Part shown: one piece after another, positions 31,498-40,031 of the stretch
Layout: each line of letters opens with the position of its first letter
Numbering within the stretch: position 1 is the first letter of the stretch
Assembly: GCA_024276705.1 (NCBI GenBank)
Contig: JAJRWS010000095.1
Location: forward strand, 1-40,031
Direction: 5' to 3'
Length of the DNA: 40,031 nucleotides
Source of the DNA: Planctomycetota bacterium
GTDB taxonomy: Bacteria > Planctomycetota > Planctomycetia > Pirellulales > Lacipirellulaceae
Notes under the pieces: model-generated
Database searches by the model: none
What the model was told of the DNA's origin: nothing
Seen by the model: only the letters and a program-made list of their open reading frames with translations
Made by a program: the position numbers and the translations under genes

Positions 31498-31959
31498 CGA
31501 TAGGGTCCTGGGTAAAAGGCACGTTGCAATGGTAGTTTACCGTAATTGTGTGCGGCCCGCCTGTTCTCGCCCATGACGGGTTCACGGCTATGACGGACCT
31601 ATTCTATTTCAACCGCTTTCGTGACGGAATGGAAGGCTTGTTGTGTTCAGTCCAAGCGATCGTTTCAGCAGGAATTCGGTCGTTTCGGACGGAGCAATAA
31701 TTTCCGGTTTTTTGTTGACACTCTAGTTGGCGGTGAATAAACTGCACGGGCATTAGCGATATTAACGGTTGCGTGCGGGGCTACTTGCCAAGTGGCGTGT
31801 ACGCCGCGGTTGTCGGTGAAAGCCTGATTCTTTTCTGGTTAATTGGAGGGTTTTTCTGACCTGGTTGGTGGGCATGAGGCTTAATAGGGCACCGCCGCAT
31901 TGCCTGACAAGTGTATATTTAAAGTTAGACCTCCAGCATTTGAAGGAAGAGAGAATTTC
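31498..31959. promoter_or_regulatory. Gene-free leader of the polyprotein gene with a candidate sigma-70 promoter
   Basis: 462 bp without a gene. TTGACA at 31715-31720 and TAAACT at 31737-31742 (16-bp spacing) form a fair -35/-10 pair, about 218 bp upstream of the ATG at 31960, implying a long leader. The assignment is by consensus only, and planctomycete promoters are poorly characterised. Nothing else structured was recognised here. Confidence 0.3.
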
Positions 31960-34900
31960 ATGCAAAGTACAACCAATCGGCCAGGCTCCTTAAATCACAA
32001 GAGTTTTCTTGTCGTTGCCGTCGTGTGCGTTTGGGCGGGGCAAGCTCTCGCGGACACAACCGTGTGGAACTTCACCGGCGGTAATTTTACGCCCGAGGCG
32101 GGCGGTGTCGGCACCATGGAATTTTTCAATGGCGACGCGACCTTTGGCACCTTCGGCAACGGCAACATCGGCGGCGGCTCGACCGGTGTTCTCAACTTCA
32201 CGGCTGCCACCCCCACCCAGGGCCTGCAGGTCACGCATAACTCCCCGGCCAACGGGGGCGGGGCCTTGGTGAATCAGTACACCCTGATCATGGATGTCAA
32301 CTTTTCCTCGCTTGCGGGCTACACTGCTCTCTATCAGACCGACATGCTCAACGAAAGCGACGGGGACTGGTTCATCAACTCTTCCGGCGGAATCGGTATC
32401 GGCGGCGACTACCAGGGCGACCTTTTTCCGTCGACCTGGTACCGGCTTGGCCTGGTTGTCGATTCGACCAGTTCCGGCAACAGCTACCGGAAGTACATCG
32501 ATGGCGTGGAAGTGGGGGTGCAGGGGGTGGCCGATACGATCGACGACCGCTGGGCGATCGACTCGTTTTTCCTGCTGTTGACCGATGAGAATGATGAAAC
32601 CAACGCAGGGTCCCTCAGCAGCGTCCTGTTTACCGACCGGCCGCTCAATGCGATTGAAATGGGGGTTCGCGGCGGCCCGACCGCCGATGGCATTCCGGCC
32701 ACGATAACGCTGCCGGTCTTGGAGATTGTCATAGACCGTGACAATGGCCAGATTCAGTTAGAGAATAACACCGGATTCGGGCAGGATATCAAGGGTTATT
32801 CGATTCTTTCGGCCGACGGCGCCTTGATCGAGGAAAACGCCTCGTTCTTTGCCGACACCGACTCGAACTGGATCCAGTTCACGGCGCCCGGGGCGACCGG
32901 CGACCTGAGTGAAGGCCATCTGACCACCGGCTCGATTGCCAACACAGCCTCGATTGATTTGGGCAACGCCTGGCTCCCGTACTACCGGGAGAGTGCCGAT
33001 ATCACGTTTGAATATCTCGATGGGACGGGTGCCCTGGTGACCGGAGCCGTCTCGTTCACCGGCAATGGCGGCTCGGCGTTCGCCCTGGCTGACCTGAATT
33101 TCGATGGCAACCTCGATGGCCAGGACTGGCTGGCTTACAAGGAGGGTCTGGGAGTCGATTTGAGCGGCCTGTCAGCCGCCCGGTCCTATCGGCAAGGCGA
33201 TCTGACCGCCGATGGCGCGAATGACTACGACGATTTTCTCGCCTTCAAGACGGCCTACGATGCGGTTAATGGAGGTGGGGCTTTCGCCGCCATGTTGGCT
33301 GCCGTACCGGAGCCGACTTCGATCGTGCTGTTGGCCCTGGCTGGCCTGTTCACCTTCGGTAGGAACCGGGCGGGTTGCATGAGGCTGTTTCTGGTGGCGA
33401 GCGTCATGGTCTTGCTGGGAAGCTGGCTGCCGGCTGGCCAGTTGCGGGCCCAACTGCCGACCCCCAGCGGACTATGGGAATTCAACAACCCGGCTGATTT
33501 GACCCAGGCAGCCATCGGTAACGATCTGGTTCTGGCCGGAAACAATGGTCCTGGAGCCCACACGGCCATTGCCGGGATTGGGGGCAGCGACGGAGCTGTC
33601 TCGATCGGAGTGGGCAGTTACTACCAGGCGACTCCGGGCATCGCGGCCAATGGCGGCGCGGGGGCCAATTTTGTCAATGAGTTTACGTTGATATATGACT
33701 TGAAATACCCCGCGTCGAGCGTGGGAAATTGGCGTGCCTTGTTCGCCACCAACAACGATGTGAGTGCCGGCGATGCCGACTATTTCATCCATCCGTCGGA
33801 CGAAAGTTGGGGGGTTGGTGATTTAGGTTACACGGACAACGCGGGCACGGGCGAGTTCTTCAGCAGCCCCGATACCTGGTACCGGGTGGTCATGGCGGTC
33901 AATCTCGACGACGACCCGAACGAAGCTTATTTCAACCTGTACATCGATGGAGTACTGACCGGCCAGCACAACGTGGGCAGTCTGGGCCTCGATGGCCGTT
34001 TTTCGCTCTATGCCAGCTCCGATCCAAATCCGATCATGCTCTTCTCGGGCGACAACGATGGCGAGGATGCCCAAATGCATTACTCCAACATCGCTATTTG
34101 GGATCGCCCGTTGACGCCATTCGAGATTACCGCCTTGGGTGGTCCCGATCCGGACGGTATCGACTTGAATGTGCCGGTCCCCGGCATCACGTTGCAGGTC
34201 AACACGACCACCGGCAACGTGACGATGCTCAACAACCGGGGTATCGACCTGCCCGAGGCGATCAATTTCTACGAGATCCTCAGCCCGGCCGGCGCGCTCA
34301 ATGCCACCGGCTGGAACAGCCTCGACGATCAGGGAACCGATTCGCTGGGCTCGGCAGATGGCCAAAGTTGGGATGAAGGAGGTGGCTCCGACGCGAACCT
34401 GTTGACCGAGGCTTTCCTGTTAGGCACGTCCCAGTTTAACGATGGCCGCTCGATCGACCTTGGCACGGCTTTCGATCCTTCCCAGTTCGGGCAGGGCCAG
34501 GACGGCGACCTGGAATTCTATTTTGGGATGGCCGATTCCGAGCAGCGGCTTGCGGGCAGGGTCGAGTATGTCTCGGGCGGATTCCTGTCGGCCGACTTCA
34601 ACACCGACACGTTTGTCGACGGCCAGGACCTGGCGATCTGGAATGCCAGTTTTGGGGTTGATGCCGGGGGTGACGCGGATTCCGACGGCGACTCCGACGG
34701 TAACGATTTCCTGACCTGGCAACTTCAACATACAGGTTCTCCGCTCGCCACGCCCGACGCGGTTGGGGTGCCCGAACCGCGGGCTTTCGGCCTGTTGCTT
34801 CTGGGGCTGGCGGGTCTGATTTTGCTGGCGGGTCAACGCACGGTGCTCGCAGGTCAACGTACGTGTCTGGTCAGGCAGCGGCCGGGACGCTTCACGCGCG

Positions 34901-36075
34901 GGTGCTGGAGCCTGGGCATCATGCTTACCGCCGCTCTGGTTCTCGGTTGGTCGTCAGGAGTTTTGGCCAGCAGCACCAACGATCGCGAATACTGGCTTGG
35001 GGATGATGATGGTGTGTTGGCGGATGAGAGTGTCAGCTTGACCTTCGATAGCATGTTCACATTAACCGGCGAAGGAGGCGATCAACAGAATCTAACCCCC
35101 TCGGCCACCGCGCCGACTTATGTGGATGTCGGCCCATCGGGCCTGGCCCGGCCCGGAGCCCTTGCGAATGCGCTGGGGGTTGCGTTCGATGCGGACGGCC
35201 AGAACTACCTGGTAGGTGATCGACTGGGCGAACCGCATTCGTCGATCGCCTCGGGCGAGTCGGATTTTTTTGGCCCGCTGGACTATAGTGATATCGTCGA
35301 TCGGGGTTTTCAGCTCTGGGTCCGTCCAGGCAATGGGTCGGGTTTGCAAGATGTGGTCATGGACACCAACCAACACGGCCTGCGGATCAGCGAGGCTGGT
35401 ACCTGGGTCTTGCGTTACGATGGGGGCGATATCGACAGCGGGGTTGCCGCGACTCCCAATCAGTGGGCCCATGCGATGGTGGTGCGGCCCGCGGGCGGGA
35501 CTGGGGCGCGTCTTTATGTCGATGGTTTTGCAATTGCCGCCGATTCAGGCGATTATAACCATGGCGACAATTTCCAACTGGTCCTGGGGGCGAACACGGG
35601 TGCTGCTGATAGTGAGCTCGTGGGCACGGATAACTTCTTTACGGGTGTTCTCGACGATTTGGAGATGTTTGTCCTGGGCGTGAGCTTTTTCGATGGCATC
35701 GATTACGGAACGTTCGATCCGGCCGAGGACAACCCGATCATCGCGGCGGCATTGGAGGGCATTGACCCGGCTGATGTCAACATGGACGGCGTGGTCAATG
35801 CCCAGGATGTTGACGACTTCGTGGCCAGTTGGCTTGACGCGAAAACGGTCAATGGAATTTCCATGGGTGATTTAGCAACCCGGGCCAGCGGCGACTTGAA
35901 TCTGGATGGAAATATCAACTTGCTGGACTGGAGCATCTTGAATGCCGCCAACCCAGCGACCGGAGCCACGATTATGGCGGCCCTGCAAGGGGTTCCCGAA
36001 CCGGCCTCGCTGTGGCTGCTCGGCTCGAGTCTGGCCTGGTTGCTGATTCGGCGCAGAGCCGGCTCGGGACGGTAA
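31960..36075 (+). CDS. Tandem triple PEP-CTERM polyprotein (3 x signal peptide - LamG - dockerin-like - PEP-CTERM)
   Basis: 1371 residues in one unbroken frame; ATG 31960 has GGAAGAGAG 6-15 bp upstream. Module 1: signal peptide about 12-32, a LamG-type domain (WNFTGGNFTPEAG, YTALYQTDMLNESDGDWFI), Ca-binding dockerin-like repeats (ADLNFDGNLDGQDWLAY), then PEP at 450-452 with a membrane span and RNRAG. Module 2 begins with a signal-peptide-like segment (M474 to about 497, VASVMVLLGSWLPAG, cut at LRA-Q), LamG, repeats (SADFNTDTFVDGQDLAIW), PEP at 938-940, span and basic tail. Module 3 starts at about M988 (LTAALVLGWSSGVLA), LamG, repeats, PEP at 1346-1348 and RRRAGSGR. Each cassette alone would be a normal exosortase substrate. 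A terminator-like hairpin follows at 36101. Confidence 0.9.
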   Translation: MQSTTNRPGSLNHKSFLVVAVVCVWAGQALADTTVWNFTGGNFTPEAGGVGTMEFFNGDATFGTFGNGNIGGGSTGVLNFTAATPTQGLQVTHNSPANGGGALVNQYTLIMDVNFSSLAGYTALYQTDMLNESDGDWFINSSGGIGIGGDYQGDLFPSTWYRLGLVVDSTSSGNSYRKYIDGVEVGVQGVADTIDDRWAIDSFFLLLTDENDETNAGSLSSVLFTDRPLNAIEMGVRGGPTADGIPATITLPVLEIVIDRDNGQIQLENNTGFGQDIKGYSILSADGALIEENASFFADTDSNWIQFTAPGATGDLSEGHLTTGSIANTASIDLGNAWLPYYRESADITFEYLDGTGALVTGAVSFTGNGGSAFALADLNFDGNLDGQDWLAYKEGLGVDLSGLSAARSYRQGDLTADGANDYDDFLAFKTAYDAVNGGGAFAAMLAAVPEPTSIVLLALAGLFTFGRNRAGCMRLFLVASVMVLLGSWLPAGQLRAQLPTPSGLWEFNNPADLTQAAIGNDLVLAGNNGPGAHTAIAGIGGSDGAVSIGVGSYYQATPGIAANGGAGANFVNEFTLIYDLKYPASSVGNWRALFATNNDVSAGDADYFIHPSDESWGVGDLGYTDNAGTGEFFSSPDTWYRVVMAVNLDDDPNEAYFNLYIDGVLTGQHNVGSLGLDGRFSLYASSDPNPIMLFSGDNDGEDAQMHYSNIAIWDRPLTPFEITALGGPDPDGIDLNVPVPGITLQVNTTTGNVTMLNNRGIDLPEAINFYEILSPAGALNATGWNSLDDQGTDSLGSADGQSWDEGGGSDANLLTEAFLLGTSQFNDGRSIDLGTAFDPSQFGQGQDGDLEFYFGMADSEQRLAGRVEYVSGGFLSADFNTDTFVDGQDLAIWNASFGVDAGGDADSDGDSDGNDFLTWQLQHTGSPLATPDAVGVPEPRAFGLLLLGLAGLILLAGQRTVLAGQRTCLVRQRPGRFTRGCWSLGIMLTAALVLGWSSGVLASSTNDREYWLGDDDGVLADESVSLTFDSMFTLTGEGGDQQNLTPSATAPTYVDVGPSGLARPGALANALGVAFDADGQNYLVGDRLGEPHSSIASGESDFFGPLDYSDIVDRGFQLWVRPGNGSGLQDVVMDTNQHGLRISEAGTWVLRYDGGDIDSGVAATPNQWAHAMVVRPAGGTGARLYVDGFAIAADSGDYNHGDNFQLVLGANTGAADSELVGTDNFFTGVLDDLEMFVLGVSFFDGIDYGTFDPAEDNPIIAAALEGIDPADVNMDGVVNAQDVDDFVASWLDAKTVNGISMGDLATRASGDLNLDGNINLLDWSILNAANPATGATIMAALQGVPEPASLWLLGSSLAWLLIRRRAGSGR

Positions 36076-36431: not shown

Positions 36432-37399
36432 ATGGGTATGAAAACGGGTCGGCTTCTTTGCACGGTCTTAAGTCTCTTTGTTTTGCTGGCCATGCCCGCA
36501 TGGGCCCAAACCAAATCGCTGGTCATCGGCATTGACGGATTGGGGTTCGGAGAACAAGGCTTTTCAGTTGCTTCAACTCCCTGGATGGATCGGTTAATCA
36601 CCGGCCAATGGCTGGCCGGGTATCATGGCGCCTATTCGGCCCAGGCCTTTGCCGGGGGAGTCCTGGGCACGCCGACCCAACAGACAACGGTCAGCGGCCC
36701 GGGCTGGAGTACGATCCTGACCGGCGTCTGGACCGACCGGCATGGAGTCACGGGCAATGGCAGTTCGTTTGCCAATGGGGACTTCGACAATAATCCGGCC
36801 TACCTGGGCACGCTCAAAGAGACCATCCCCACGCTGACGACGGCCAGCTACGTCAATTGGACTCCGAAAGAACAATTCCCTGGATCGTGGCAAGCCAGTT
36901 CGTGAACCAGGGAAACTTGCCTATTTTTCCCCAGGGTGTTTCCCATGCCGATGTCGCGCCAACGGTGCTGGACCATTTTGATATTCCACTGCCTGACCGT
37001 TACGCAGGCGTCTCCCATGCCGCCGGCGCCATCTCGATCAACCCGGACATCAATGGCGACGGCATTGTTTCAGGCGACGGTACCGGCGAGTATGCCAACG
37101 ACGATGTGGTGGCCTTTGTTTCCCTCTGGTTGCAGCCCAACACGATCGAAAATCCAAATCCGGCCGATTTGAATCTGGATGGGATCGCCAACCTGGCCGA
37201 CTGGGCCGTACTTAACCAGGAGTTGCCTTCGATGGGGGCAGCCGTTCTCCATGCCTTGCAAGGGGCCGCCGTGCCCGAACCGGCCTCGGCCCTACTGGCG
37301 GTCATCGCCTCCCTCGGCCTGCTTGCAAGCCGGACCCGCTCTCCATATTGCATCAAACCTCAATGGATAGTACGTCCGACCTGTGAACGGTTGGCATGA
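36432..37399 (+). pseudogene. PEP-CTERM type I phosphodiesterase/alkaline phosphatase-like gene, internally deleted
   Basis: The 5' frame (36432-36905) has a signal peptide (LCTVLSLFVLLAMPAWAQ) and the start of a phosphodiesterase/nucleotide pyrophosphatase domain: LVIGIDGLGFGEQG, STPWMDRLI, and the nucleophile region GPGWSTILTGVWTDRHGV. It then reads off into PKEQFPGSWQASS and stops. A second frame, open from about 36857, carries the late part of the same domain (RTIPWIVASQFVNQG, SHADVAPTVLDHFDIPLPDR), dockerin-like repeats and a PEP-CTERM end (PEPASALLAVIASLGLLAS). The two halves meet near 36866-36872 but in different frames, and the middle of the domain, with the usual metal-binding Asp/His residues, is missing. 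So this looks like a deletion with frameshift. A ribosome-binding site (AAAGGA) lies ahead of 36432. Confidence 0.85.
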
Positions 37400-37412: not shown

Positions 37413-37580
37413 ATCTGCGTCAATCTGCGTTATCTGCGGGCTCCCTTTGAATAAGGACCCATGGGAGACGGCATGAGCAATGAGTACTTTCTTCAAGAAG
37501 AAACCTTGCATTTCCCCGGGCGTCTGCTTGGAGGTCACCAAGAAGAGAGAGGCCCGCAGATAACGCAGATTGACGCAGAT
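37413..37580. mobile_element. 168-bp unit with perfect 28-bp inverted terminal repeats
   Basis: ATCTGCGTCAATCTGCGTTA and the next 8 bases at 37413-37440 are the exact reverse complement of 37553-37580. The 112 bp between has no gene. The arms belong to the same 'aatctgcgt' family as the repeats at 27101 and 37797. It could be a MITE or a folded intergenic repeat. Confidence 0.8.
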
Positions 37581-37891: not shown

Positions 37892-40031
37892 CTACAGTCG
37901 GGCAAAGAGCGTGTCGAGCAGTTCGGAATTGACCGACTCATATAGCGACTCGTTTGGTTCCGTCCGGCTATCCGTCGCATTTGAAACAGGCTCTCGATCC
38001 TGCCTGCCGCGCTCACTACGACGAATACGTTGTAACGATCCGAAGACCGGATGTATCGGCTTGAACGTGTGCGCGGCCGCCGGCCACACGTTTTGAAAAT
38101 CGACAAGACTCGAGTCAGAGAATCTTCTGGTAGTGGTCCTGGTGGTCACGGCCCACAATGCTTGCTTGGCCAGGAGAGGATCCGTGCTGGCCTTTTCCGT
38201 GCTGGCTAGATTTGAAAAAGCCGCATCGACCGCTGCCGTGGGACTCGGGCTCGAAGTGACCGACAGGGCCAGGGCGGAAGGTGTGGCCAGCTCTGCCGTT
38301 GCCAGTTCCGCCGCTGCCGCCAGTTCCGTGGCGGCCACGGTCTGGCCAAACTCACCTTGCCACAGCGTCAGGTCGGCGCCATCGACAACACCATCGCCGT
38401 TTGCATCCCCGGTCGCTGGGGTGCCGGGCCCGCCGAAGCCACGTTGCCAGGTCAGGAAATCGATGCCATCGGTGTCGCTGTCCGAATCAAAATCGGCCAC
38501 CAGCGGATGGGTGATGGTATGCGTGTCGAGAATGCCGATGTACGATCCGTCCGCATTGAAAGCGTGCAGGATCACTTCGAGCCGATTTCCTTCCACGCGT
38601 AGTTCCGTGTATTGGTTGACCAACCCACCCACGATTGGCCGTGGCGGGCCGAGTACGCCGGCCGAACTTTCGTCTCGGACACTGCCTGCCAGATCGTGCG
38701 CCCCGCCGACCGTCATGTGGTCCCATTCCCGCACGATCGGTTCGTTCGTATCGAGCCAACTGCCACCGCCGGTGATCAGATAGTTAACGCCGTTCAGTTC
38801 GCCCCGTTCATATTCGTGGGTGTGCCCGCTGACGATCAGATCGATGCCATACTGCTCGGCCAGGGGCACCAAATTGGCCCGCAAGGATGAACTGCCATCG
38901 ATCCAGCGTTCGCAGTAGGGAGGTACATGGATACCTAGTACGGTGAAGCGCGGATCGGGATGGGACTGCAGCACACCCTCCAGCCAGCCGTTGGTAATGT
39001 CATCCATGCTGTAATAATCGATGGCGATCAGCAGAACCCCCGCCTGCTCGAATGCATAGGAGCCGTAGCCCGATGTGTACGGCCCGCCCCGATCTTTGCT
39101 CGGCATATCGGCGAATTTTCGGATCATGCTGCTGGAACCCTGGTCGTGGTTGCCCCAGGCATTGAACCATGGGACCGATTGGCCCAAATGCTCGGCCACG
39201 CGATCGAGGTAGTAAACCTGAGTGTCCGAGTAGCTGGAGCCGCTTTCGGCCAGATCACCGGTCGTGAAGCCGAAGTCGACTCCTTGGGCCACCATGTGGT
39301 CGAACATGGCGGTCGTCGGGGCGTAGGGGTCGGCCGTCCAGGTGCCATGGTTGGTCCCCTGGCTGTCGCTCCACATGGCGAAGCTGAAATCGATTTCACG
39401 GGTTGTGAAGGTCGTGAACTGGCGGTCTCCGGTCAGCGGTTGGAGAGTGTCGTCGAGCAGTCGGAAATGATACCCGGTCTCTTCCGTCAAGCCGGTGATT
39501 TCCGCCTTGTAGATGTACGTCCCCTGCCCACTGGCGATGTTCGTGGAGACCATGCTGGTGCCATAAGATGTGTCGAGGCCATACTCCACGGAAATGGGGA
39601 CGTCGGCGCTCATTTCCCACATGACCACGATCCCTTCGGTGTTAGCATTCTGCAGATAAGGATTGGTGACAAAGGCCAGTTCGGTGGCCGAAATGCCGCC
39701 CAAGAATTTCGCCTGAACGTCGGTGAGGGCCCAGTCGTAAATGGCCAGTTTCGACACATCGATCGTGTTGTCCTCGCCATCTTGATCCGCAAAAATGAGC
39801 AAGGTCGAATCGAGCGAGAACCGGCCATCGATCGATTGGATCGTCCCCTCCAGAATCTGCTCGCCATTGAGATAGATGTCGTAGCGATTTCCATTGTCGA
39901 CGGCGAAGACGATCCGGTACCACTGGTTGGCAACAATCGCCTCGCTCGAATACCCGGTATCCATCACGCCGATGGTGTTGTTGCTTGTATTGACAAAAGC
40001 ATCCCCATCGTTGCTGTTGGTCGGGTCGGTC
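37892..40031 (-). CDS. LamG - purple acid phosphatase-like metallophosphoesterase - dockerin-like protein (5' partial)
   Basis: The frame is open to the right edge, so the N-terminus and signal peptide lie outside; 712 residues are visible. Residues 1-115 are the end of a LamG domain (YRIVFAVDNGNRYDIYLNGE). Residues 118-210 form a fibronectin-like purple acid phosphatase N-domain (NPYLQNANTEGIVVMWE). The metallophosphoesterase follows with its metal ligands in order: SDSQ (D222), GDLAE (about 258), GNHD (293-296), H368 in GIHVPPY, and GHTHEYER (402-409). Dockerin-like Ca-binding repeats come next (VADFDSDSDTDGIDFLTW, GDANGDGVVDGADLTLW), then an Ala/Thr-rich tail of about 150 residues without a PEP-CTERM signal. 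Predicted: a secreted phosphatase or phosphodiesterase. The LamG and dockerin parts resemble the polyprotein modules nearby. Confidence 0.92.
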   Translation of the reverse strand, partial: TDPTNSNDGDAFVNTSNNTIGVMDTGYSSEAIVANQWYRIVFAVDNGNRYDIYLNGEQILEGTIQSIDGRFSLDSTLLIFADQDGEDNTIDVSKLAIYDWALTDVQAKFLGGISATELAFVTNPYLQNANTEGIVVMWEMSADVPISVEYGLDTSYGTSMVSTNIASGQGTYIYKAEITGLTEETGYHFRLLDDTLQPLTGDRQFTTFTTREIDFSFAMWSDSQGTNHGTWTADPYAPTTAMFDHMVAQGVDFGFTTGDLAESGSSYSDTQVYYLDRVAEHLGQSVPWFNAWGNHDQGSSSMIRKFADMPSKDRGGPYTSGYGSYAFEQAGVLLIAIDYYSMDDITNGWLEGVLQSHPDPRFTVLGIHVPPYCERWIDGSSSLRANLVPLAEQYGIDLIVSGHTHEYERGELNGVNYLITGGGSWLDTNEPIVREWDHMTVGGAHDLAGSVRDESSAGVLGPPRPIVGGLVNQYTELRVEGNRLEVILHAFNADGSYIGILDTHTITHPLVADFDSDSDTDGIDFLTWQRGFGGPGTPATGDANGDGVVDGADLTLWQGEFGQTVAATELAAAAELATAELATPSALALSVTSSPSPTAAVDAAFSNLASTEKASTDPLLAKQALWAVTTRTTTRRFSDSSLVDFQNVWPAAAHTFKPIHPVFGSLQRIRRSERGRQDREPVSNATDSRTEPNESLYESVNSELLDTLFARL

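Follow-up and report, generated by a model that had tools for sequence, protein, structure and literature searches.

Three cassettes in one open frame

The window, meaning the whole 40,031-nucleotide stretch of DNA analysed here, holds on its forward strand a single open frame of 1371 amino acids (31960-36075), which runs from an ATG at 31960 to a stop codon ending at 36075 and encodes three serial PEP-CTERM cassettes. The frame is open already from 31888, and a TTG at 31900 provides an alternative start. At the N-terminus lies a predicted signal peptide (residues 1-31; 31960-32052) with a hydrophobic core and a predicted cut at ALA|D, assigned from hydrophobicity and inspection of the sequence without a dedicated predictor. 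The predicted exported part of cassette 1 (residues 32-449; 32053-33306) comprises a beta-rich domain, a conserved middle domain and dockerin/EF-hand-like repeats, as assigned from a structure model and a weak EF-hand_7 match (E 0.11). It is closed by the first internal PEP-CTERM (33301-33369), in which PEP at residues 450-452 is followed by a membrane span and a basic RNR, and then comes a putative internal signal peptide from M474 to A497 (33379-33450) whose predicted cut, LRA|Q (residues 495-498), falls between 497 and 498. The exported part of cassette 2 (residues 498-937; 33451-34770) is recognised by homology to the second cassettes of relatives, for example C491 at 48% identity, and leads into the second internal PEP-CTERM (34768-34839), with PEP at residues 938-940, a span and a basic loop containing a short LAGQRT repeat. 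A third putative signal peptide (residues ~975-1003; 34882-34968), assigned from hydrophobicity and sequence with a predicted cut at VLA|S (residues 1001-1004, between 1003 and 1004), precedes the exported part of cassette 3 (residues 1004-1345; 34969-35994), which was assigned from a structure model and Pfam, and the frame ends with the terminal PEP-CTERM (35992-36057; PEP at 1346-1348).

With PF07589, three stretches of the protein were recognised as PEP-CTERM (E 9.8e-9), and in a search of the genome two of the three copies, the first internal one and the terminal one, scored over the cut-off; TIGR02595 matched the protein at 35.1 bits against a cut-off of 16. Both junctions were also matched by a junction profile (A1, 63 rows, built from PEP-containing junctions), at 33289-33489 (E 2.1e-12) and at 34759-35013 (E 3.1e-10), each of the two being itself a row of that profile. 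An earlier note on this DNA had described three serial cassettes in one open frame, PEP motifs at residues 450, 938 and 1346, and internal signal-like segments with LRA-Q and VLA-S; the cassettes and segments are borne out, and the motif positions are exact, with VPEP beginning at residues 449, 937 and 1345. Only the third copy occupies the extreme C-terminal position, as 919 and 431 residues follow copies 1 and 2. A promoter scan, which was overall at chance level, gave one 10/12 site upstream of the frame at 31715-31743 and no site near the junctions. The adjoining gene at 36432-37399 is disrupted.

The same note had placed a LamG domain and dockerin-like repeats in every cassette. LamG holds for cassette 3, where PF13385 (Laminin_G_3, a concanavalin-A-like domain) matches at 35311-35670 with 47.4 bits against a cut-off of 27.6 (E 2.9e-12), but not for cassettes 1 and 2 of the window, in which the Pfam search returned no LamG match; in relatives, cassettes 1-2 bear Laminin_G_3 (7/22) or F5/8C. 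The dockerin-like repeats of cassette 3 (PF00404; 35770-35943) stay below the curated cut-off in the window (E 0.0034), whereas in relatives they reach 8.8e-12. Together, the LamG and dockerin-like modules point to a predicted role in carbohydrate or matrix binding. AlphaFold modelled cassette 3 with its junction at a mean pLDDT of 86.0, the junction appearing as a 25-residue helix (the PEP span) and then a shorter 14-residue helix (the signal peptide) ahead of the domain. A Foldseek search with this model returned diverse lectin-like jelly-roll folds, with 5hon as the best, and these matches to a predicted structure are compatible with Laminin_G_3. The model of cassettes 1 and 2 together (992 aa, 22 sequences) was poor, with a mean pLDDT of 60.8, so its fold matches were left unused as evidence; within it, residues ~250-440 of cassette 1 reached pLDDT values mostly of 81-97. 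At two related loci (L094 and L101), cassette 1 is phosphodiesterase-like and has a relative in the gene directly downstream in the window.

Internal junctions across the Lacipirellulaceae

Internal PEP-CTERM signals followed by a signal peptide, which the earlier note had proposed to look for in other proteins, turned up in dozens of ORFs, closed genomes included. A whole-protein search of 60 related genomes, with 60 regions then scanned for ORFs, revealed many single frames of ~1300-1500 aa that match two or three cassettes, several of them on closed single-contig genomes. These 60 regions contain 111 distinct in-frame internal junctions, in which PEP is followed by a membrane span, a basic loop and a second span, PEP at the internal site being partly a criterion of their selection. 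Exactly two internal junctions together with one terminal PEP are found in 44 ORFs, and other ORFs carry one, three or four junctions. Profile A1 matched all 44 of the 44 Lacipirellulaceae genomes searched (E <= 0.001), and among the matches listed, 14 of 15 genera have stop-free ones that cover the greater part of the junction. The closed genome G013 holds 38 junction matches in about 25 frames. That the architecture is an assembly or base-calling artefact of a metagenome-assembled genome could be suspected from the state of this assembly, which has 698 contigs and is 85% complete, and from the disruption of the neighbouring gene (36432-37399); closed single-contig genomes share the same architecture, as in the about 25 ORFs of G013, and assembly error was rejected as its source, its probability being practically negligible.

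Across the phylum, the search of 392 genomes returned mostly the terminal PEP-CTERM alone among the matches listed. Through-running in-frame junctions outside the family were rare among these listed matches (G143 and G225, and more weakly G421 and G389), and the rarity of full junctions in the phylum is an estimate that applies to the matches listed.

Sequence features of the junctions are consistent with a pair of sorting and export signals. PEP is present at all 64 of 64 terminal sites and at 111 of 119 internal sites among loosely defined candidates, and the residues flanking the internal motif resemble those of the terminal copies. The invariance of PEP in the junction alignment arises partly by construction, because its rows were chosen from PEP-containing junctions. 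A scan for hydrophobic pairs, made separately from the PEP criterion, found PEP ahead of 110 of 143 pairs; the pairs lacking it were mostly shifted duplicates or pairs within domains, and two real junctions (L062 and L072) carry PEH and PEG instead of PEP. After the second span, a strict AxA stands in 81 of the 111 junctions, compared with 43.3 +/- 4.6 in shuffles and 42 in a control taken after span 1, and at the N-termini of these ORFs 37 of 56 signal peptides have it. Measured from the last basic residue, AxA lies equally far along in internal and N-terminal signals (medians 12 and 13, p 0.24). Junction loops have a net charge of at least +2 in all 111 cases (median +4), and as they are always positive, the basic side is expected to be cytoplasmic and every cassette outside.

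Two spans joined by a basic cytoplasmic loop also have the look of a hairpin anchor, and an uncleaved form would give the same topology and the same charges. The main rival to a processed polyprotein is accordingly a membrane protein that stays uncleaved or partly cleaved, with the PEP span and the next span forming such a hairpin and the three domains remaining on one chain. We regard this as unlikely, though it is the alternative that deserves most weight: a plain anchor needs neither PEP nor AxA at signal-peptidase distance, yet both are kept, and the rates of evolution and the separate genes described below also speak against it.

Reading frame, selection and inheritance of the junctions

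With a median length of 71 codons, the junction segments lack stop codons in frame in 111 of 111 cases; when they are read in the remaining two forward frames, 8 and 31 of 111 are free of stops. A chance open frame was rejected on these counts. In ten homologous pairs, pN at the junction lies well below pS, with dN/dS of 0.22-0.46 where computable and of 0.09-0.22 outside the junction, values that are rough because dS is near saturation. Junction codons are under purifying selection, that is, they are selected as protein. At the same time pN is higher at the junction than in the rest of the protein in 10 of 10 pairs, so the domains change more slowly than the junctions, a difference expected for signals that are discarded and one that argues against a hairpin that is retained. 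Open frames and selection over the junctions together support the predicted translation of the cassettes as one chain.

A different route to separate products would be initiation at in-frame starts within the junctions, which would make the cassettes individually and leave the fused frame incidental. An ATG is present in 34 of 112 junctions and is combined with a Shine-Dalgarno-like sequence in 12 of 112, above the background of 2.5% per position, and M474 begins signal peptide 2 in the window. Against this, 78 of the 112 junctions have no ATG and 28 have none of ATG, GTG or TTG, the second junction of the window lacks an ATG ahead of a proper n-region, and stop-free frames with purifying selection suggest that the junctions are translated through. 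As a general explanation we therefore hold internal initiation to be improbable. The 12 junctions with ATG and a Shine-Dalgarno-like sequence indicate that some downstream cassettes could also start internally, and such predicted starts may add to cassette supply at some loci.

The earlier note had set fused against separate genes in relatives as a way of judging the polyprotein reading, and both states exist: fused orthologues are spread across genera, and separate tandem genes occur at three loci. In a tree of 66 third-type cassettes, 55 lie at the end of a fused ORF, 4 lie elsewhere in fused ORFs and 7 stand alone, the alone state requiring three changes, from which it follows that fusion and fission do occur. 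In one supported group, 8 genera contribute 12 fused genes, and many of the orthologous triples compared within it align end to end across both junctions at 41-75% identity; this distribution and alignment indicate that the triple is old in Lacipirellulaceae. At L237 (G012) the same cassettes are three separate tandem genes, at L235 (G015) two are fused and one is separate, and at L243 (G018) one is separate and two are fused. The separate cassettes at these loci each have their own signal peptide and PEP-CTERM, the split falls exactly at the junction, and the stand-alone cassette 1 of L243 shares 45% identity with the first cassette of a fused ORF.

The note's own alternative, a recent and functionally meaningless fusion in which tandem paralogues lost the stop codons between them, could draw on these separate versions in some relatives and on the three changes to the separate state among the 66 third cassettes. 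It is rejected because fused orthologues persist in several genera with 41-75% identity, and beyond the family the matches listed for the phylum sample include few full in-frame junctions; we consider a recent event of this kind very improbable. The architecture and conservation of the serial cassettes are firm. That the same cassettes exist as separate genes also speaks against an uncleaved hairpin, and since a stop codon or a protease cut at the junction yields the same proteins, this interchange is the best argument for processing of the fused chain.

A candidate surface polyprotein

We consider it likely, on the features of the encoded sequence and their comparison among relatives, that the ORF at 31960-36075 encodes a surface polyprotein, a single chain that signal peptidase and exosortase would cut at each junction. 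The earlier note had offered this reading, which gains comparative support from recurrence, inheritance across genera, selection on the junctions and interchange with tandem genes; from these we infer full-chain translation, both cleavages and surface anchoring. The serial PEP-CTERM gene thus probably encodes a true bacterial polyprotein, and its form is unlikely to stem from a sequencing error or an accidental fusion. In the mechanism that we propose, the whole chain would be synthesised and pass through the Sec translocon, with signal peptide 1 setting off export at cassette 1. Transfer would then be halted by the PEP-CTERM span, whose basic tail would remain in the cytoplasm, and the next hydrophobic segment, acting as an internal signal peptide, would restart export so that the cycle repeats. 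Signal peptidase I would cleave after AxA and exosortase at each PEP, and two short membrane hairpins would be discarded to leave three separate sorted surface proteins.

Bacterial polyproteins cut at an internal signal peptide have a precedent in FbcH, the cytochrome b/c1 precursor of Bradyrhizobium, which is cleaved there by signal peptidase; FbcH differs from the ORF described here in lacking a sorting tail and in giving two respiratory subunits through one cut. ArtA, a relative of exosortase, reportedly processes a Haloferax protein whose tripartite signal is not at the C terminus, according to work by Abdul Halim and colleagues from 2017. The likeness lies in an exosortase relative acting on an internal tripartite signal, although that case is archaeal and apparently has one internal signal and no chain of cassettes. 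Our literature search found no paper joining PEP-CTERM, exosortase and polyprotein. An internal MYXO-CTERM is described in MXAN_5598, for which an origin by gene fusion and processing were proposed (PMC11980579). This too is a sorting tag inside an ORF, but it is a single case served by myxosortase, whereas the present ORFs number in the dozens, are conserved between genera and have both signals in each cassette.

With the PEP-CTERM/exosortase system itself (PF07589/TIGR02595; PF09721) the ORF shares the motif, span and basic tail, a leading signal peptide and exosortase genes in the genome. The signal there normally lies near the extreme C-terminus and ends the protein, and the very few copies with long tails were suggested to be possibly non-functional (Haft et al. 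2006, PMC1569441); in the present ORF two of the three copies lie inside the chain, and after each comes another signal peptide with its own cassette. The serial genes of Lacipirellulaceae argue otherwise for long-tailed PEP-CTERMs. Although described as a C-terminal tag, PEP-CTERM serves here as internal punctuation, or has at any rate been retained in that position, and one family pairs it with an internal signal peptide in dozens of its genes. If the junctions are cleaved, these genes would be a large-scale use of a polyprotein strategy that is rare in bacteria, easily mistaken for genes of one giant protein, and each chain would report its own cuts, making exosortase cutting directly measurable. 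The arrangement also raises a topological question, namely how Sec would alternate stop-transfer and restart several times per secreted chain.

Extended to the family, the evidence tilts towards a model in which a large share of the surface proteins sorted by exosortase in Lacipirellulaceae arises from serial polyproteins with 2-5 units, processed by signal peptidase and exosortase. If this family-wide reading is true, partner surface modules would be supplied at a fixed 1:1:1 ratio. Exosortase (PF09721) was found in 58 of 60 genomes, with three matches in the genome of the window (best E 4e-57).

Composition and order of the cassettes

In the related regions L094 (genome G002) and L101 (G015), the first cassette of a three-cassette fused ORF is a phosphodiesterase-like protein such as that encoded at window 36432-37399, and the serial units of fused ORFs are therefore not restricted to LamG-like proteins. 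Because the cassette that usually stands third is found at the first or a middle position in L061, L091 and L242, cassettes are shuffled from one chain to another.

Longer chains and junctions beyond the class

L075 (G022) and L080 (closed genome G013) carry longer chains, in which the internal junctions number three and four. The small cassettes of L080 are repeated and near-alike to each other, which suggests that the chain lengthened via tandem duplication. Clear fused junctions are also present in genomes beyond the class (L229 in G143 and L230-L232 in G225), where the cassettes differ, and these may represent separate, independent origins.

The region 3' of the main ORF

The next gene after the main ORF (36432-37399, forward strand) encodes a type I phosphodiesterase-like PEP-CTERM protein split over two frames, with a PF01663 match in its first part. 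Since about 100 middle residues are absent and the frame is shifted relative to L101, this copy is either decayed or misassembled. A perfect 29-nt inverted repeat (37413-37441 and 37552-37580), with arms 110 nt apart, lies 3' of this disrupted gene. On the reverse strand, a calcineurin-like phosphoesterase gene (37892-39967) encodes an N-terminal domain of the purple-acid-phosphatase type together with a LamG-like piece.
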